Shown here one piece after another: positions 3,982 to 21,381 of a stretch of DNA of 35,478 nucleotides. The notes beneath the pieces were generated by a model. The model ran no database searches and had not been told where the DNA came from. It worked only from the letters and a program-made list of their open reading frames with translations. A program made the position numbers and the translations under genes. The DNA is from Candidatus Peribacteria bacterium RIFCSPHIGHO2_01_FULL_55_13 (GTDB taxonomy: Bacteria; Patescibacteriota; Gracilibacteria; Peribacterales; Peribacteraceae), in the NCBI GenBank assembly GCA_001788925.1, contig MFXS01000022.1, forward strand, positions 5,654 through 41,131, written 5' to 3'. Numbering within the stretch: position 1 is the first letter of the stretch; each line of letters opens with the position of its first letter.

Positions 3982-5334
3982 ATGTCTGAATCGGGCACTG
4001 AATCGCTTTCACCACAAACTGCGCCCAAACGCAGAGGCCCATTGCGATACATTCCGCGACAAATATCTCTTCGAACGGCTGCTCTCATCGGAACGCTTCT
4101 CTGTTCCTATTTTGCCTACGAAAGCATTCATATTCGCAGAAGCCAGGTACACAAAAGGGCAATCGACCTCCTCCATTCCACAAAAGACACCATGGTAGCA
4201 ACGAAAGATTCTGTGCCTTGGACCCCATGGAATTACCGTACGTATCACCGATACCAACAAAAGCTCGGTCGCACCGATGTCCCATTTTTTATGGAATTGC
4301 CACGAGTGAGTGATATTGGTGTCTTTAAGGAGAAGCTCGGAATGGGTGATGAACGATTGGAGTGCATTTATGACCTGCCGCAGAGCGCCGATGATGCATT
4401 TTTAGACAACATGCATATTGAGGAATTAACAACGCTCCTTTTAGTGGACCTCCGTGGGACGAAGGTCACTACAGCATCCATGGAAAAGTTACGCAGCTTA
4501 CATCGTCTTCGTTACCTGTATCTGGATGATACTGTCATTGGAGACGGGGCGATTCCTGTACTTCAGAGTTGTACGAATTTGGAAGTCGTGAGTGCGCAGA
4601 GAGCGGGAATCACGGACAAATCACTGGCCGCTTTTTCGGAGTTGCGCCAACTGCGCGATCTGGTCATCAGTGGAAATTCGGGCATTACGCCGTCCGGTCT
4701 GAAAACATGCCTTTCACAATTGCAAGATCTTTATTCCCTGCAAGTTTCCGGCATACCGCTTGGCGATGATGCCTTTTCTGCGCTTCCGGATCTTCAGGAT
4801 CTTTCCTTCCTGGATGCAAGTGATACAGGCGTGAGCGATGGAGTGTTGCCCTCTATCGGAGCGGCAGGAGAAGATCTGGCTTTACTCTACCTGCGGAATA
4901 ATCATATCACAGGAGAGGGACTCGATTCCCTTCAGGGTAATACGCAGTTATGGGGCGTTGATCTGAGCGGGAATCCGATCAATGAAGCTGGGGTAAAACA
5001 CCTTGCTCACATGCCCAACCTCAAAAACCTGTCTCTCAATCATGTACCCGTCACCCCGGAAATGCTGCAGGCGTTGGAACAGTGCGAGATGTTGGATTCT
5101 CTTGAGCTGAGACACTCTCCTGGCGTTACGGATGCAACAGTCCGTATTGTCGTTCAATATCCGTCATTACAACGTTTGGATATCACCGGTACCCAAGTAA
5201 CAGCAGAAGGCATTCGCTATCTTTGCGAGCATGCAGATCATTTAGAATGCATCATACTTGAGCGTAGTAGAATTACCGATGAACAAGAGGACGAACTCCT
5301 CGAGAAAACTAAAGTACATTTTTCAAGACGATAG
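3982..5334 (+). CDS. Leucine-rich-repeat protein with N-terminal TM segment
   Basis: Repeated ~24-aa LRRs (LRYLYLDDTVIGDGAIPVLQSCTNLEVVSAQRAGITDKSLAAFSELRQLRDLVIS...), hydrophobic segment near N-terminus (TAALIGTLLCSYFAY). Confidence 0.85.
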   Translation: MSESGTESLSPQTAPKRRGPLRYIPRQISLRTAALIGTLLCSYFAYESIHIRRSQVHKRAIDLLHSTKDTMVATKDSVPWTPWNYRTYHRYQQKLGRTDVPFFMELPRVSDIGVFKEKLGMGDERLECIYDLPQSADDAFLDNMHIEELTTLLLVDLRGTKVTTASMEKLRSLHRLRYLYLDDTVIGDGAIPVLQSCTNLEVVSAQRAGITDKSLAAFSELRQLRDLVISGNSGITPSGLKTCLSQLQDLYSLQVSGIPLGDDAFSALPDLQDLSFLDASDTGVSDGVLPSIGAAGEDLALLYLRNNHITGEGLDSLQGNTQLWGVDLSGNPINEAGVKHLAHMPNLKNLSLNHVPVTPEMLQALEQCEMLDSLELRHSPGVTDATVRIVVQYPSLQRLDITGTQVTAEGIRYLCEHADHLECIILERSRITDEQEDELLEKTKVHFSRR

Positions 5335-8722: not shown

Positions 8723-9745
8723 ATGGCATCCGGACTCGAGCAACTCTTTTCCGCCGCAGCAAAGCTGGGCGCATCGGATATTCACCTGGCTGTCGGCAGC
8801 CCCGTCGTCTTCCGTATCGACGGTGTACTTGCAGAGCAGGGCAAGAAGGCGCTCACCGCGGCTGATGTGGAGCGCGCGATCAAAGGAATCCTCGGCGCGG
8901 AGCGTTTTAAGGAATTCGAGCGCGCCCGCGAGATGGACGCGGCGTTTGCCGTCGGCGCAATGCGCTTCCGTGTGAACTGTCACTTTGAAAAAGAAGTTCC
9001 GGGCCTTGCCGCCCGTATCATTCCCCAGGAAATCCCCTCGGTGGAGGACATCGGCCTCACGGCGGTTGCCACCACGCTTTGCAATCTCAGTGACGGTCTC
9101 GTGCTCTTCACCGGCCCCACGGGCTCGGGAAAATCCACGTCACTCGCTGCCCTCCTCAACCGCATCAACCAGGAACGTTCTGAGCACATCGTCACGCTGG
9201 AAGATCCCGTCGAATTCCTCTTCCCCCAGGGCAAAGGTATCGTCCGCCAGCGTCAGTATGGTTCCGACTTTCTCTCCTTCCCGGATGCGCTCAAGCACGT
9301 CTTGCGCCAGGATCCGGACATCGTCATGGTCGGTGAAATGCGCGACCTGGAAACCATCGCCGCAGCCCTCACGATCGCCGAAACCGGCCACCTCGTCTTC
9401 GCCACACTCCACACGCCCAATGCTATCCAGACGGTGGACCGCATCGTCGATGTCTTCCCTCCGCACCAGCAGCAGCAAGTCCGCATCCAGCTCTCGCTCT
9501 CGCTCAAGGCCATTGTGGCCCAGCGGCTGCTCCCCAAAGTAGAAGGCGGCAGAGTCGCCCAGCGCGAAGTCCTCGTGATGAACCCGGCCGTGGGCCACAT
9601 CATCCGCGACAACCGCTCGCAGGAACTGAAGTCTGTCCTCCAGACCGGGCGCGACACGGGGATGACCACCTTCGAAGTAGATGCGAAGAAGCTGTATAAA
9701 GAAGGGGTGATTAGTAAGGAGACGTTTGAGTGGGCGAGGCTGTAG
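8723..9745 (+). CDS. pilT: PilT-like type IV pilus retraction ATPase
   Basis: Walker A GPTGSGKSTS, Asp box HIVTLEDPVEFLF, Walker B IVMVGEMRDLETI, His box HLVFATLHTPNAIQTVDRIVDVFP. Confidence 0.93.
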   Translation: MASGLEQLFSAAAKLGASDIHLAVGSPVVFRIDGVLAEQGKKALTAADVERAIKGILGAERFKEFERAREMDAAFAVGAMRFRVNCHFEKEVPGLAARIIPQEIPSVEDIGLTAVATTLCNLSDGLVLFTGPTGSGKSTSLAALLNRINQERSEHIVTLEDPVEFLFPQGKGIVRQRQYGSDFLSFPDALKHVLRQDPDIVMVGEMRDLETIAAALTIAETGHLVFATLHTPNAIQTVDRIVDVFPPHQQQQVRIQLSLSLKAIVAQRLLPKVEGGRVAQREVLVMNPAVGHIIRDNRSQELKSVLQTGRDTGMTTFEVDAKKLYKEGVISKETFEWARL

Positions 9746-9746
9746 T

Positions 9747-9789
9747 GTTCCATGACCCCATGGAACGTCCAAAATGGCTCAATGAAGCC
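9747..9789 (+). repeat. Two-hairpin 43-nt dispersed element, copy 1
   Basis: GTTCCATGACCCCATGGAAC-GTCCAAAA-TGGCTCAATGAAGCC. Confidence 0.75.
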
Positions 9790-9881
9790 CCAATTTCCAG
9801 CGCAATGTCAAATAGACCTTACTACTACTCCATCATGTCCTTGCACTCTGTAAAGAGCCCGGTAGCATACGAAATTGCCCG

Positions 9882-12143
9882 ATGACCCAGCTCCCCGCCG
9901 CCATCGAACAATATCTGTTGGAGTGCGGATTTACCTCAACAGAGATCCTCATTCTCAAGCACCTGCTTGCGGGGGGCTCCATGACGCTCCGGGAACTGGC
10001 CGCCAAAACAGGAAAGAGCACGGGGGTGCTCGATAGCGCGAGCAAGAAGCTTCTGAAGAAGGGGATTCTCGGAAAGGAACTCGTCAATGACTCTCCCAAA
10101 CTCACACTTTCCTCGCTCGAGGCCGTGGTGGCATGGGTGCATGAAGACAGCGAGCGGACACGCAATTTTATGGAGCGGCGGGAAAAGGACCTGCAATCCT
10201 TCGTGGATTCTCTTTCCCCCAACATGAGCCGGGCCGATATTGAGCACTTCGAAAAAATGGATGGCCTGGAACAGGCCTATGAAAAATTGCTGGAGGGATG
10301 TAACGGCGTCATGCTCCACTTCCTCCCCGTTCGCCATACCGAGGTGGAGGACCCGCTCCGGGATTTCCTCGTCCAGTTCTTCCGCGTTCGCCGGCGTCAG
10401 GGAATCATCACACGCGTCATCGCACACGACACCCCCCTCGGCCGCCGCTATCAGTCCAGAGATCCCTTCGAGTACCGCCAGACGCTTCTCGTTCCCGAAT
10501 CCGTCTACGCCTTTAATACGGAAAAAGTCATCGCGGGGGATTGGGTCGGCACCATCAATCATGCAGATGCTAAAGCCCTGATCATCCGCAGTCCCGAAAT
10601 GGCGCATACCGAACGCGCGATGTTCGAGGCCATCTGGAAACAGGAGATGGCGAAGCAGAAGGAGAAGGGGGCGTCTGTACCGGCGGCAGTACCAAAAGAA
10701 GAAGAGATGAAGACGAGGGTGGTGTCAGCGGCGAGGGAGTTTTTCTTGAGTAAGCGTAGTCTTGCGGCTTTTGGAATGTTTCTGGTCATTGCTCTAGGGT
10801 CGACATTTGCTATGTATAAGTATAATGAGAATTTGAATCTTAAACGCGTACAAGAAAAATTGCTCTCGATAGCTGCAACCGGTGCCCTGCAGTTCTCGCC
10901 CAAGGATATAGAGGTAATCAGAGATTCAGATGATGCTCAAAAACCTCAGTATGGAAAAATAATTCTTCAAATGAATCAAATACGGAATCAAAATGAAGGA
11001 GTCCAGTACATGTATATTTTGAGACCGACAGCCGAGCAAGATGTGTGGGAATTTGTCGCTGATGCTGATTCGTTAGATCTGAATGCTAAAAAAGATTTGA
11101 ATAAGGACGGAGTTGTTGACGAAGCAGATCACCTTTCTCCGCCGGGAGAAAAATACGAGGCCAAAGATTTTCCTGCGCAATACCGTCGTTCATTACTTGA
11201 ACCGGTCATTATTAGCGCATCTCAGGATCAATGGGGTTATCTTATTGCGGCTTGGGCTCCGATACGAAATGAACAAGGTGAAACAATAGCAATTCTGGGA
11301 GTCGACAAGTTTGCGAGTGATGTAACGAAGCTGGCAGCCGACACTTTTAAGCCCTTTGCATTTTTCTTAGGAATTTTTCTTTGTTTGATAATTGCTAGAT
11401 TTGCAGCACATAACAGATCCTTGATAAAAGAATTCTTTAGGCTTACACAAACAAAGGCGGCCATTGTTACTATAATTTTTATTTTAATTATAAGCGCCGC
11501 AGCCACGTCTTGTATGTATTGGTACACGCTGAGTTTGCTAAGGGAGCAATTAGGTCAGCGTTTAAGATCAATTGCATCAGCTACTGCCGCACAAATTAAT
11601 GCACAAGATCTTGAACCTTTACGGTTTGCTCGAGACATGAAGCGAGATGAATACCAGCGCGTGTTCCGTATCTTGAATAAAATGCGTGAAGAAAATCCAG
11701 ATATACTTTGGGCATATGTCATGAGACCTATTGAAGGCAATATCTGGGAATTTGTTGTTGATGCTGATTCTAATTTTGATTTGCCTCCATCCCAAGATTT
11801 GAATCTTGACGGTTTAATCACGGAAGACGAGGAAAATGTTGCACCAGGCGTTCGATACAATGTTGATGTGGCACCAGAGATAGTCAGCGCGCTTTCTGAA
11901 GCTGTTGCGACCGACGATTTTTATTCTGATCAATGGGGGACTTATATTTCTGGTTATGCACCAATTTTGAATGAAAAAAATGAGCCTGTAGCTATTGTAG
12001 GCTTTGATATGTCTGTAGATACTGTTCTATCTGTCACAAACAAAAAATTTATTGCGATAGGGGGGATATTACTTCTTGCTTTTGCAATACTTTTGCTTTT
12101 TCTCTTTTCTCGACAGAAGCTGGTATTAATATCCAAATTTTGA
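9882..12143 (+). CDS. Membrane-tethered TrmB-type transcriptional regulator fused to two tandem TM/extracytoplasmic EF-hand sensor modules
   Basis: N-terminal winged-helix (LRELAAKTGKSTGVLDSASKKLLKKGIL) and TrmB-like middle domain; then two modules TM-[..YMYILRPTAEQDVWEFVADADSLDLNAKKDLNKDGVVDEAD..]-TM and TM-[..WAYVMRPIEGNIWEFVVDADSNFDLPPSQDLNLDGLITEDE..]-TM. Confidence 0.85.
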   Translation: MTQLPAAIEQYLLECGFTSTEILILKHLLAGGSMTLRELAAKTGKSTGVLDSASKKLLKKGILGKELVNDSPKLTLSSLEAVVAWVHEDSERTRNFMERREKDLQSFVDSLSPNMSRADIEHFEKMDGLEQAYEKLLEGCNGVMLHFLPVRHTEVEDPLRDFLVQFFRVRRRQGIITRVIAHDTPLGRRYQSRDPFEYRQTLLVPESVYAFNTEKVIAGDWVGTINHADAKALIIRSPEMAHTERAMFEAIWKQEMAKQKEKGASVPAAVPKEEEMKTRVVSAAREFFLSKRSLAAFGMFLVIALGSTFAMYKYNENLNLKRVQEKLLSIAATGALQFSPKDIEVIRDSDDAQKPQYGKIILQMNQIRNQNEGVQYMYILRPTAEQDVWEFVADADSLDLNAKKDLNKDGVVDEADHLSPPGEKYEAKDFPAQYRRSLLEPVIISASQDQWGYLIAAWAPIRNEQGETIAILGVDKFASDVTKLAADTFKPFAFFLGIFLCLIIARFAAHNRSLIKEFFRLTQTKAAIVTIIFILIISAAATSCMYWYTLSLLREQLGQRLRSIASATAAQINAQDLEPLRFARDMKRDEYQRVFRILNKMREENPDILWAYVMRPIEGNIWEFVVDADSNFDLPPSQDLNLDGLITEDEENVAPGVRYNVDVAPEIVSALSEAVATDDFYSDQWGTYISGYAPILNEKNEPVAIVGFDMSVDTVLSVTNKKFIAIGGILLLAFAILLLFLFSRQKLVLISKF

Positions 12144-12186
12144 GGGGGAGGGAGTGGTAGCAATAAATCCATATTTCCTCTATAAT

Positions 12187-13626
12187 ATGTGGATGCATGT
12201 TAAAAATTACTTCAAGCGAATATCAGGCCACGGAAGAGTTCTTGTGGCCCTAATGTTATGTGCAGCATTGGCAGCTGCTATTACTTATATTTTGTTCGTT
12301 CAAACACAACAAATTTTAAAACAAAGACTCCAAGAAAGAATTGTTGCAATTGTTTCCACAATTGCAAATGAGATTGATGCTGCTGATGTCGACAGAACCA
12401 CGCAAGAATCAGATTCGAATTCAGTTAGCTTAAAAAAATTGGTACATCAACTTGAGAATCTCAGAGCTGCCAATGAAAATATTCAATATGCATACATAAT
12501 GAGGAGGACATCTGAACCCAATACTTTTGAGTTTGTTGCAGATGCCGACTCTTTAGACTCTTTTGAAGAATTAGATGCGAACCAAGATGGGGAGGTTTCA
12601 GATGATGAAGTGGCTCCATTGCCAGGAGATCCTTTTGATGTTTCTGACTATCCAGCATTAAGAGATGAGGCATTTTACTATCCTGTAGCTGCTGATGAAT
12701 TGGAAAAAGATCAATGGTCAGTTCAGCTTTCTGCTTATGCTCCAATTTTGGATAGCAGGAATGACGCCATAGCAATTATAGGCATCGACGTTGTTCTTGA
12801 TGATTTTAATGAGAGGACCCAAGCAATGCTACGGCCTTTTCTACTCCTTATTCTTTTCTTGATCTTTTTGCTTTCCCTTTTAACCACAACGCTTGTTCGA
12901 ATTTATAATGAACGAGTTGAAGCAGTTAAAGAGTTGGACCGTCAAAAAGATGAATTACTTGGAATAGTTAGCCATCAATTGGCTACACCTATTTCTGCTC
13001 TTAAATGGGACTTTGAAATGCTTCTTGATGGGGACATTGGCGAGGTAAATAAAGAACAGAAGGATTTCTTCCAAAAACTCCAAGGAGTTACGGCACACCT
13101 TTCCGACCTTGTTTCCATGATCTTGGATGTGTCACGTATTCAACTTGGTCGCATAAAGGTGGACCGCACGGAATTGGATCTAAATGTTTTCTTTGGGGAA
13201 GTATTGAATATCATGCAATCAAAAGCTAAAGAGCATAAGGTGAAGCTTACACAAGCTGTGCAAGAAAAAATGAGCACAGGCAATCTCGATAAGCGTTTGA
13301 TGTTAATGATTACAGAAAACCTCTTGAGCAACGCTATCAAGTACACTCCAGAAGGAGGTAAGGTGAAGCTCGAGGTAAAAGTGGAAAGTGGCGCTCTGAA
13401 GTTCTCTGTCAGTGATACCGGTTGTGGTATTCCAAAACAGGATCAGGACAAAATTTTCGGAAAGCTCTTCCGTGCCAGCAACGTACGCAACGTGGATGGT
13501 AATGGATTTGGTTTGTATGTTGTAAAAGGAGCTGTTGAGGCACAAGGTGGAACTATTTCATTTAGGAGCCAAGAAAATAAAGGAACCACCTTTAGTGTTG
13601 AGTTGCCCTTGCCCCAAAAGAGTTAA
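12187..13626 (+). CDS. Sensor histidine kinase with N-terminal EF-hand-bearing extracytoplasmic sensor module
   Basis: TM-sensor-TM (YAYIMRRTSEPNTFEFVADADSL...DANQDGEVSDDE), H box IVSHQLATPISALKWD, N box ENLLSNAIKYTP, G1 DTGCGIP, G2 GNGFGLYVVK. ORF track start is GTG 12154; ATGs at 12187 and 12193 look better. Confidence 0.92.
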   Translation: MWMHVKNYFKRISGHGRVLVALMLCAALAAAITYILFVQTQQILKQRLQERIVAIVSTIANEIDAADVDRTTQESDSNSVSLKKLVHQLENLRAANENIQYAYIMRRTSEPNTFEFVADADSLDSFEELDANQDGEVSDDEVAPLPGDPFDVSDYPALRDEAFYYPVAADELEKDQWSVQLSAYAPILDSRNDAIAIIGIDVVLDDFNERTQAMLRPFLLLILFLIFLLSLLTTTLVRIYNERVEAVKELDRQKDELLGIVSHQLATPISALKWDFEMLLDGDIGEVNKEQKDFFQKLQGVTAHLSDLVSMILDVSRIQLGRIKVDRTELDLNVFFGEVLNIMQSKAKEHKVKLTQAVQEKMSTGNLDKRLMLMITENLLSNAIKYTPEGGKVKLEVKVESGALKFSVSDTGCGIPKQDQDKIFGKLFRASNVRNVDGNGFGLYVVKGAVEAQGGTISFRSQENKGTTFSVELPLPQKS

Positions 13627-16539: not shown

Positions 16540-16582
16540 GGCTCTATGGAGCCAAAATTATGGTTCCATGGGTGCGTGGAAC
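16540..16582 (-). repeat. Two-hairpin 43-nt dispersed element, copy 2
   Basis: Reverse strand: GTTCCACGCACCCATGGAAC-CATAATTT-TGGCTCCATAGAGCC. Confidence 0.75.
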
Positions 16583-17337: not shown

Positions 17338-20300
17338 TTATCCCTGAATCGGATTTCCCGCTGAGGTGCGTCCGTCAAAGTAATATTGCTCCGCTTTCCA
17401 CCAATCTTGGCCTGCGCTCTCTCCTTCCGTGTACTTGGACTTCGTCGGATTGACGTAAAAAATCCCCTCAAACTCTTCGTTGCACTCGGCAAGTGGGGAC
17501 GTGCCGGAGTTTATTTTCTGTGGTGTGAAGAGAGATGCAATCGGATGACTGGGATTATCTTTTGCATTTTGCAACAGCTCTGAAAATAGAGTGACGGCGA
17601 ATCCGTGCTCCCTCCAGGCATCAAGTAGCTCATCTTTTACTTCGTTTGTCATAGACACGAAGTATTTTTGCTCCAGTAGCGCGCGCAATGATTCAATATC
17701 GTTCCCTTCATAGTTTTCCGGCACTTGGATACTGAATGTTTTTTGTGCCGTGAGCGCATTCCTGGCATCCCCAAACATGCTGCTGTGGAAGGCATAGGAA
17801 GAATCCGCCACACTGGCGAAATTGACTTTTGAATTGTCATATTTGTCTGCGAGCACAATGTTGTCTTCTGCCGGATCAAGCGCAACTATTGTCCGTAGTC
17901 CGCCCGGCAAATGTGCACCGATTTCATATACCACGTAGGAACCCCAGCTGTGACCTACGCCACTGATATTTGCACTGGGTATTTCCATTGATTGCAGCTG
18001 ATTTGCTGCCCACGCTCCAACAGACTCAATCCATTTGGATCCATCCAGGCTTATTTTGGTCATATTATCCTTTGCAGACGCTGCCCAGTTCAGAGTTACT
18101 AACTGTACGTTATTTGAAAGCAGGCTCTGTTCCAGCTCAGACATTTGGTCAGAATTTTCATTGTCGTTTCTTCCATGGACTCCCACCCAGACGGGAAGAG
18201 AAGGGTTGAGTGCGGAAATGGCATCATTGCCTTCGGTGGCCTTATAGTCAGTTTTCCTTTGACCCGATGGATCAAACTCCGCCACTCTCAAACTCACTTC
18301 CTTCACCTCACTCTCGCCGGGAAGACTTACTCTCCCCACAATCTCCCGCATATTCCACGGCCGCACGTCCATATGGAGCGGAAATTCCAGTGGGCGCGAA
18401 CGCAGGTCATTGCCATGAGGCATCACTCCATAGTTCGTTTTATCGGAAACAGTCACTTCATATGTTCCCGGCGTGAGCTTCAGACTAGTGGAGCCTGCTG
18501 AGGAGTTGCCGTGATCGGAGGAATAGCCGCCTGCAGGAAGGTCGCCCCCAGAAATCGTGAGCGATACGGCTCTCCCTGGGACGCTATTCACCCAGAAGTT
18601 CGCCATCACCTCACGATCCAGGGCGAAGCGCATCGTCTGGCTGCTTTCCGCAGGCACGCGTATGGATTCCGATCCGATAAGTTCGCCGTTTTTGATTACG
18701 ACAGTCGCACCGGGCGCCGCCTCATGACTAAAGCTCGATTTCCCCAAGACCTCCGAATCCGGAGTCCCCGCTTCCGCATGATTCTCCCGTGACACCACCT
18801 GGAGATACGGCACCCTTGCCTCCGCATAAATCTCCTGCAGACTGAACGGTGATTTTGCCACGGCAGCTTCAAATTCCCGCCGCACTTCGGCGCCAAGATT
18901 TTGGATTTTTGGAGCCGTCTTCACCATAGCTTCTTTCAGCCGATCTTTATTGACCTCGACTTGCCTGCTTTCCTTCGGGTCCTTTTCTTTCCGCGGCGTA
19001 TCCCCCAGATGCGTATCTTCCCAGTTCTGCCTCTCCACAGCCTTCTGGTTCTCAATGAGCCGGTCGATATTTCCATTCAGAAGCCTCTGACTCTCTGCCA
19101 GCACCGCTTGCTTGTTGGGGACGTATACCTGGAAATCACGGGCGAGTTCACCGATGTACCGGCCGCGCGTGCGGGTGCCAAGAACGAAATCGAGCATTTC
19201 CATGGCGTGCTGCGTCGGCTCACCTTTGAGGTCGGCGATGTGGTATTCCATGCCCCTTTGCAGGGCATCCCCCACGACGTCCTGGTATACGCCGAGCAGA
19301 CGGCCGAGTTCCGTGCGGATGTCGCTATCCACCCGATGGTTTCCACCGCCGTAAGCGGGATTGCGGAGCGGGAGGGCATTTTGCATTTCCGTCGAAATGA
19401 AGAATCGAGACTCGAGAAAGAGGCGGCTGCGTTCGAAGCTTGCAAGCGGAGCCCCATACTGTACGTTTTTGATGAGCGCGAGCCGTGGATCATCCTTCTC
19501 TATCCCCGCTTTTTTCTGCGTGGTGGAGGCCTCCACAGGGTTTGCGTGGCGGATCTCCATGGAGCCGATATCGACCTGGTAGACACTGGATGCATCCACC
19601 CTCCGCGCCACGTATTTCTTTTCCTGTGCCGCGACGGGAAGCGCCCCCTGAATTTCCCCGATCACTGTGCCGTTCTGGGAAATCACAAAGCGTGCTTGCG
19701 ATCCACGGTCTTCCACGGTCACGTCATAGGTGACGCCGAGCGCGAGATGTTCTGTGAAGTTGAGAGGTTCGCCGATGTACCCCTGATGGGCGCCGGATGA
19801 ATACCAGAGGCTGGCGCTGTTGTAGGAAAGGTGGAACGACAGGCCTTCCTCATACTCGTTATCGAATCTGCCGCTCGAGACGCCGTCCGTGCGGGTAACA
19901 AACATGATGCCGCCCTTTTTGCCGTTCATGGTGAACTGCGTGTGCACCACCAAAGGATTTTGCTCCGTCGGCTCCATATCCATGCGGCTCACAAGTTGCT
20001 TGCGGTCGTTGATGGACAACGGCTCATCGGGGTTCGCGTCCTGCCAGAAGTCGCCGAATGTCCCGCCGCTTGCATCGGTGGAATACACCGTGTCATCCGC
20101 CTCTTCTTGCAGCGCGTCCTCTCTGTCGAGCAGCGACTGCAGAAAGGCCAGATCCGCAAACACCGCATCGACATGTTCCTCCGGCAAGGCCTCCTGCGGA
20201 CTTTGCGCCGTCGGTTTTTGAGCAGGTTCCATGCCATGACTGAGCGACGTGCCGCTGATATGGACCTGGTAGGCATCAGTTGTTTCCGTGCGCCGGAGCA

Positions 20301-20982
20301 CCGTTCTCGGCTCGCTCGCCGCACGCGGAATCGCTCCGCGGATATCGGCAAGCACCTTGTCCCCCTGAGAAAGGACCAGATGCGCTTCCGTGCCGCGGTC
20401 CTCCACCAAAAAGTCATAGGGCACTCCCAGCTGGAGGCGTTCGGGAAATTCCACCGGAATGCCGATCAACGCCCCGCCGACGGGATCGGAAAAATAGATA
20501 CATGCCACGTTGTATTCCGCCCGGAACGAGAGCCCATTTCTGAATTCATTATTGAAGCGCCCGCTCGTCACCCCATCCGTGCGGGTGATGAGGGTGATGC
20601 CGCTTTTCTTTCCTCCAAGCGTAAATTGCGTCTTAAAGATCACCGGTGACTCGGGAGTCGGCAGCACTTCGCCCCGGGAGATGGCTTGGACGCGATCATT
20701 GATCACGAGGTCCTTTCCTTCCGGGATGTCCTCCCAAAATTCCTGCTTTTGATCGGAGCTGAACACCTCGTGCGGTTGCATCTCTGCCTCTACCCGGCTG
20801 CCCTCGCCTTCCCCCTTCGCCCATTGGGCTTCGGGGGACAAGTCGGCGGACGGGTGGAGAAGATTCCGGACTTCTGCGGATGTATCATTCGTAGGGATAG
20901 TAGTAATCGCGGACATCAGATTGCGCGGTTCAAGTGATTCGAAGGAGCTGATTCTGGACAGGGAGGAGCGGCGGTGTGCCAT
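17338..20982 (-). CDS. Large secreted multidomain protein with LEPR-x-L-like N-terminus, duplicated beta-rich domain and C-terminal alpha/beta-hydrolase (lipase-like) domain
   Basis: Likely ATG at 20982 (MAHRRSSLSRISSFESLEPRNLMSA; ORF-track start at 21114 is TTG). Duplicated modules FWEDIPEGKDLVINDR..ITLITRTDGVTSGRFNNE.. and FWQDANPDEPLSINDR..IMFVTRTDGVSSGRFDNE... C-terminal VWVGVHGRND...GVGHSWGSYVVYEIG...VALDPAEDN with GHSWG nucleophile elbow. Confidence 0.8.
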   Translation of the reverse strand: MAHRRSSLSRISSFESLEPRNLMSAITTIPTNDTSAEVRNLLHPSADLSPEAQWAKGEGEGSRVEAEMQPHEVFSSDQKQEFWEDIPEGKDLVINDRVQAISRGEVLPTPESPVIFKTQFTLGGKKSGITLITRTDGVTSGRFNNEFRNGLSFRAEYNVACIYFSDPVGGALIGIPVEFPERLQLGVPYDFLVEDRGTEAHLVLSQGDKVLADIRGAIPRAASEPRTVLRRTETTDAYQVHISGTSLSHGMEPAQKPTAQSPQEALPEEHVDAVFADLAFLQSLLDREDALQEEADDTVYSTDASGGTFGDFWQDANPDEPLSINDRKQLVSRMDMEPTEQNPLVVHTQFTMNGKKGGIMFVTRTDGVSSGRFDNEYEEGLSFHLSYNSASLWYSSGAHQGYIGEPLNFTEHLALGVTYDVTVEDRGSQARFVISQNGTVIGEIQGALPVAAQEKKYVARRVDASSVYQVDIGSMEIRHANPVEASTTQKKAGIEKDDPRLALIKNVQYGAPLASFERSRLFLESRFFISTEMQNALPLRNPAYGGGNHRVDSDIRTELGRLLGVYQDVVGDALQRGMEYHIADLKGEPTQHAMEMLDFVLGTRTRGRYIGELARDFQVYVPNKQAVLAESQRLLNGNIDRLIENQKAVERQNWEDTHLGDTPRKEKDPKESRQVEVNKDRLKEAMVKTAPKIQNLGAEVRREFEAAVAKSPFSLQEIYAEARVPYLQVVSRENHAEAGTPDSEVLGKSSFSHEAAPGATVVIKNGELIGSESIRVPAESSQTMRFALDREVMANFWVNSVPGRAVSLTISGGDLPAGGYSSDHGNSSAGSTSLKLTPGTYEVTVSDKTNYGVMPHGNDLRSRPLEFPLHMDVRPWNMREIVGRVSLPGESEVKEVSLRVAEFDPSGQRKTDYKATEGNDAISALNPSLPVWVGVHGRNDNENSDQMSELEQSLLSNNVQLVTLNWAASAKDNMTKISLDGSKWIESVGAWAANQLQSMEIPSANISGVGHSWGSYVVYEIGAHLPGGLRTIVALDPAEDNIVLADKYDNSKVNFASVADSSYAFHSSMFGDARNALTAQKTFSIQVPENYEGNDIESLRALLEQKYFVSMTNEVKDELLDAWREHGFAVTLFSELLQNAKDNPSHPIASLFTPQKINSGTSPLAECNEEFEGIFYVNPTKSKYTEGESAGQDWWKAEQYYFDGRTSAGNPIQG

Positions 20983-21381
20983 GGCGAAGGGGGGAGGAAG
21001 TTCGCTCCCATTCCACGCGTGTCCAAGAGGGGTTGGCAGATGCTGGATGACACTTCTTTCTCTTAATGATGGATTTTTGTTTTCGTGTTGCGAAGGATCA
21101 GGTTCTCTTGGCAAAACGAACGCTGAACAATCTTTCTATGCAGAGAACCGAACGGATGGCGGGGGGATGCGTGAAAGAGGGGAAAGCTTTTTGGAGCTGT
21201 GGATGTGTGCTTGTCTTTGTATGGATATGGGTGTCTCCTGACGGTTTCCATTTCTATCTTCATCCCCAACTCATTTTACAAAGGAAGAGGCTCAAAATAC
21301 GGTGAGGATTGTAGAGGAAATTGAGCAGCGTTCGGATGATTCTGTTGCTTCAAAGCAGTACATTAATGGGTGGAGTGGTAC

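Follow-up and report, generated by a model that had tools for sequence, protein, structure and literature searches.

The window, the whole stretch of 35,478 nucleotides analyzed here, encodes at 9882–12143 a protein that is probably a transmembrane one-component transcription regulator, in which a TrmB-type DNA-binding half is joined to two serial sensor modules predicted to be anchored in the membrane. Through it, outside signals apparently reach genes without a separate messenger protein. The host lineage, Candidatus Peribacteria, consists of tiny uncultured bacteria. The features referred to below are as follows.

8723..9745, + strand: pilT, encoding the type IV pilus retraction ATPase, immediately before the regulator here and in many relatives
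9747..9766, no strand assigned: candidate cis element ahead of the regulator, inverted repeat GTTCCATGACCCCATGGAAC
9841..9881, + strand: promoter-like TTGCAC-N16-TAGCAT, ending at the start codon
9882..12143, + strand: membrane-tethered TrmB-type regulator with two sensor modules, 753 aa
9921..10079, + strand: winged helix of TrmB type, residues 14–66 (Pfam, AlphaFold2 model, fold match)
10116..10214, + strand: long helix, residues 79–111 (AlphaFold2 model), probable dimerization helix
10236..10673, + strand: TrmBL2-like second domain with PLD-like fold, residues 119–264 (model and fold match)
10674..10757, + strand: cytoplasmic linker to TM1, residues 265–292, weakly conserved (alignment)
10758..10814, + strand: TM1, residues 293–311 (hydropathy; helix in model)
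10815..11351, + strand: extracytoplasmic Cache module 1, residues 312–490 (model, fold match)
11094..11129, + strand: EF-hand-type 12-residue loop 1, DLNKDGVVDEAD, residues 405–416 (motif match)
11352..11492, + strand: TM2 (491–509), short positive cytoplasmic loop and TM3 (519–537) (hydropathy, charge)
11493..12047, + strand: extracytoplasmic Cache module 2, residues 538–722 (model, fold match, module tree)
11796..11831, + strand: EF-hand-type 12-residue loop 2, DLNLDGLITEDE, residues 639–650 (motif match)
12048..12104, + strand: TM4, residues 723–741 (hydropathy)
12154..13626, + strand: histidine kinase, 490 aa, with a TM-Cache/EF-TM module followed by HisKA and HATPase (Pfam, hydropathy, tree)

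Positions 9882–12143 form one uninterrupted reading frame of 753 codons. A preliminary description, which had named an assembly join or frameshift between the two halves as one finding that would speak against it, had also proposed looking for the fusion across related genomes. In a search of 59 such genomes, the two halves were again joined in one continuous frame, both within the genus (64% and 61% identity) and in numerous further genera of the window's family. A single-protein query for close relatives found nothing in collections of genome contigs or viral contigs; an alignment query succeeded, and in named genomes it identified 48 loci from unrelated sequencing projects, almost all under the name Ca. 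Peribacteria, Peribacteraceae or Peregrinibacteria. As dozens of genes from Ca. Peribacteria/Peregrinibacteria assemblies show this fusion, and these assemblies are independent, cover many genera and yield proteins about 33–64% identical, the fusion is not the product of an assembly join or frameshift. In within-genus comparisons, moreover, the excess of substitutions at the third codon position continues through the junction, with values of 0.30, 0.19, and 0.68 at codon positions 1, 2, and 3 for residues 263–300 of the window protein compared with L034. In a few genomes, regulator and sensor do lie in different frames or are interrupted by stops (L041:6204–7550 and L059:5938–7772), possibly through decay, fission, or sequencing error; against continuous frames in dozens of genomes and a coding signature throughout the junction, however, an artefact that joined two genes is vanishingly improbable, and we rejected it. 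Within the genus, the DNA-binding part is 81–95% identical, whereas the extracytoplasmic sensor parts are 49–65% identical, a conserved output combined with a fast-changing input.

In the N-terminal half of the window protein, Pfam HTH_24 matches residues 20–62 above its cut-off, and the TrmB model PF01978 matches residues 14–66 of the full protein with an E value of 0.005, which is below the cut-off. PF01978 is matched by 24 of the 31 aligned relatives (E value of 0.01 or less, best 2e-8), and its cut-off is exceeded by the relatives L042 and L052 as well as by two soluble paralogues in the window's own genome. The TrmB-like effector domain PF11495 gave no Pfam match in the window protein, and neither did the receiver domain PF00072 in the regulator; searching PDB sequences with profiles of the N-terminus and of the modules produced no decisive match. 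An AlphaFold2 model built with 31 family sequences has a mean pLDDT of 90 over residues 1–279, and its best PDB folds are archaeal TrmBL2 (E value 2e-11), followed by the TrmB effector domain (3e-5) and PLD folds. Global TM-scores against these matches are low, about 0.35, and the arrangement of the domains may therefore differ from that in the crystals. The family alignment revealed invariant or nearly invariant residues in the winged helix, namely R37, E38, T43, G44, K45, S46, and G48.

Hydropathy predicts four TM segments, near residues 293–311, 491–509, 519–537, and 723–741, and the charge distribution follows the positive-inside pattern, with positive cytoplasmic loops and two acidic extracytoplasmic parts. 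The module pair was modelled with a pLDDT of 82, and Foldseek matched the modules to the Cache domains of KinD, the single-Cache formate chemoreceptor 8py0, and DcuS. The sCache_3_3 model passes its cut-off in the relative L105 and stays below it in the window protein. On the strength of the fold matches, we take the sensor modules to be Cache domains with an inserted EF loop. A strict EF motif of 12 residues, D-x-[DN]-x-[DN]-G-x-[ILV]-x3-[DE], is found in 52 of 74 family modules as against 0.08 per set in shuffles, and is present in both window modules and in the adjacent histidine kinase. The EF-loop region is a lower-confidence part of the model, and all Pfam EF-hand matches are below cut-off. 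That calcium is the signal is unproven: the loop may serve a structural role, and about 30% of the modules are without the strict motif. Of the preliminary description, the TrmB-type N-terminus is borne out by TrmBL2 as best fold and by the Pfam matches among relatives, membrane tethering by the predicted segments and charge, and the tandem receptor modules by two TM-extracytoplasmic-TM units with Cache folds; its designation of the modules as EF-hand sensors has to be replaced, because the fold matches show Cache domains into which the EF loop is inserted.

Complete genes of the family encode one (17 genes), two (24), three (6), or four (1) sensor modules, the four-module gene L105 having eight TM segments and 1,223 aa, so that the number two, correct for the window protein, is not fixed among sensor-bearing members. 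A further seven complete genes are without a sensor module; these include L053 and, with one TM segment each, L052 and L114. Because some members are without any sensor module, tethering is not indispensable. L042:8730–10376 combines the same TrmB N-terminus with a different six-TM tail that is another input type and has no sensor module; this gene sits directly after a two-module gene. Two or three regulator genes in a row occur in some genomes (L037, L046, L080), with three in L046:8346–13323 and L080:3527–8984.

Most last modules (26 of 30) cluster in the module tree within one clade of 32 rows (support 100/99), and 39 of 43 kinase modules are grouped separately from the regulator modules. 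Modules 1 and 2 of the window protein derive from different old lineages in this tree and are thus not the result of a recent duplication. The first module position has been exchanged more often. A scan with the N-terminal profile covered 194 genomes at the level of the class and 389 at that of the phylum, and E values below 1e-107 were confined to the window's family; outside it, the best E value was about 1e-31, in open frames of 206–401 aa, and these best matches mostly have the size of soluble TrmB proteins. Two loci titled Micrarchaeota and Kiritimatiellales (L112, L120) group with Peribacteria sequences, and their odd titles probably reflect binning contamination.

In the window and in about a dozen further loci, pilT precedes the regulator on the same strand. 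In 15 of the 28 regulator loci checked, a kinase with the same sensor is encoded a few genes away at most; contig edges cut several of the 28 short. In L040:7941–8453 and six other loci, regulator and kinase are separated by an oppositely oriented gene for a SET-domain protein. Elsewhere in the window, 3982–5334 encodes a leucine-rich-repeat protein and 17338–21114 a 1,258-aa protein with a weak lipase match. Six response regulators were found in the genome, every one a stand-alone receiver of 123–134 aa with no output domain; they are located on contigs C36, C15, C41, and C25 (L228–L231), none near the window. As the assembly is 97.7% complete, the missing DNA-binding response regulators are an absence there and not proof. 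Because the six are receiver-only, a direct route from membrane to DNA would fill this gap.

Upstream of the regulator genes of relatives, we found a promoter-like TTTACA-N17-GTAGAGT whose end is near the start codon; since the TTTACA and GTAGAGT letters served as anchors of the alignment, their conservation is partly by construction. Few sites in the family's genomes match the more stringent 17-base form GTAGNRTRCNNNTTTGC, and several of those are regulator promoters. The regulator mRNA is possibly leaderless. The inverted repeat GTTC-N12-GAAC precedes 33 of 62 regulator genes; only genomes of this family are enriched in it (276 sites versus 49 for the reversed control; 15 versus 20 in other families). 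The form GTTCYR-N8-YRGAAC, enriched in the same family alone, occurs in the window at 9747–9766 and 16563–16582, in G000, G003, G017, G027, and G031, and also near rny and nusA/lspA. In other genomes, the repeat is often found some 118 bp ahead of small, unrelated genes, which by eye are RAYT-like, GIY-YIG-like, four-helix-bundle-like, or DUF559-like. G010, G022, and G034 have the repeat without the gene and G030 has the gene without the repeat; given this mismatch and the sites at unrelated genes, we rejected the repeat as a proven operator of this regulator and treat it as a lead. The inner positions vary independently, which weakens a reading as an RNA hairpin, although some sites directly follow stop codons.

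If the protein is a one-component regulator, its cytoplasmic N-terminal half, made up of winged helix, long helix, and TrmBL2-like domain, would bind DNA, probably as a dimer, and a short linker would connect it to serial TM-Cache-TM units with the Cache domains facing outward. These domains would bind a small extracellular ligand, and the EF loop may bind Ca2+ as a structural cofactor or co-signal. The ligand state would alter packing or dimerization of the TM bundle and, through it, the DNA affinity of the dimer, which, still in the membrane, would reach its sites through diffusion and capture, a mechanism shown for CadC (PMC7888679). The direction of regulation and the target genes are inferred. 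The homologous sensor in the adjacent kinase, an ordinary input domain there, supports the reading as a regulator. Speaking against it are the matches of the window protein to the TrmB and Cache models of Pfam, which are below cut-off, the members without a sensor module, and the failure of the candidate operator GTTC-N12-GAAC to track the gene.

Two other readings start from the same architecture. The sensor might control cleavage near TM1, releasing a soluble TrmB half that acts in the cytoplasm: the weakly conserved linker of about 28 residues between the domains offers a place for this, and the sensor-less members L053, L052, and L114 suggest that the N-terminal half may work alone. We consider such regulated proteolysis unlikely, however, as the linker alignment contains no conserved cleavage motif and each signal would cost up to four expensive sensor modules. 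The frequent proximity of a kinase with the same module would also be compatible with mixed receptor complexes in which the kinase gates the regulator; the separate grouping of kinase modules in the tree and the retention of the kinase without the regulator in some genomes make such pairing quite improbable. Within the preferred reading as a one-component regulator, it is possible rather than probable that these proteins are a lineage-specific receptor type in which TM-Cache-TM units are gained and lost serially, integrating one to four signals and replacing the missing DNA-binding response regulators. The protein points to a way in which signals from outside might control transcription in a reduced Patescibacteria lineage that has no such regulators, and the series of one, two, three, and four modules on one DNA-binding protein is a natural one for testing signal integration.

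The preliminary description knew of no named family with this architecture, which was too strong, as transmembrane transcription regulators are a described and widespread class (PMC10269533) and Cache fusions to transcription factors have been counted (14 with sCache_3_3 and 300 with dCache_1; PMC4822843, Table 1). The window protein has a DNA-binding domain and TM segments (by hydropathy) in one protein, as this class does; its helix matches are of the HTH_24/TrmB/MarR type only and its TM segments are four, which places it outside the ToxR/CadC definition of an OmpR-type winged helix with a single TM helix and one periplasmic domain. The main text of the survey of transmembrane regulators (PMC10269533) does not mention TrmB, and the review of the TrmB family (PMC4158304) describes soluble regulators, with no membrane member and without the word membrane. 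Our literature search found no TrmB member of the transmembrane class and no paper that joins TrmB with Patescibacteria; most subscription papers were outside its reach, and the novelty of a TrmB output with serial TM-Cache-TM repetition, which holds within the literature searched, is therefore provisional. ToxR, CadC, TcpP, and archaeal ArnR likewise unite a DNA-binding domain and a membrane-spanning sensor, but in ToxR-like proteins a single TM helix leads to one periplasmic domain, whereas here each module has two TM helices and modules are serial. Known Cache sensors share the extracytoplasmic Cache fold between two TM helices; the serial repetition of whole units, the inserted EF loop, and the TrmB output set the present family apart from them. 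With EF-hand proteins, the modules have the canonical 12-residue Ca2+ loop signature in common; those proteins have a paired helix-loop-helix domain, whereas the modules here appear to carry a single loop inserted in a Cache domain. Winged helix, long helix, and TrmBL2-like domain are shared with TrmB, TrmBL1, and TrmBL2 (PF01978/PF11495), and by adding one to four transmembrane sensor units the Peribacteria proteins extend to membrane receptors a family that has been described as soluble.
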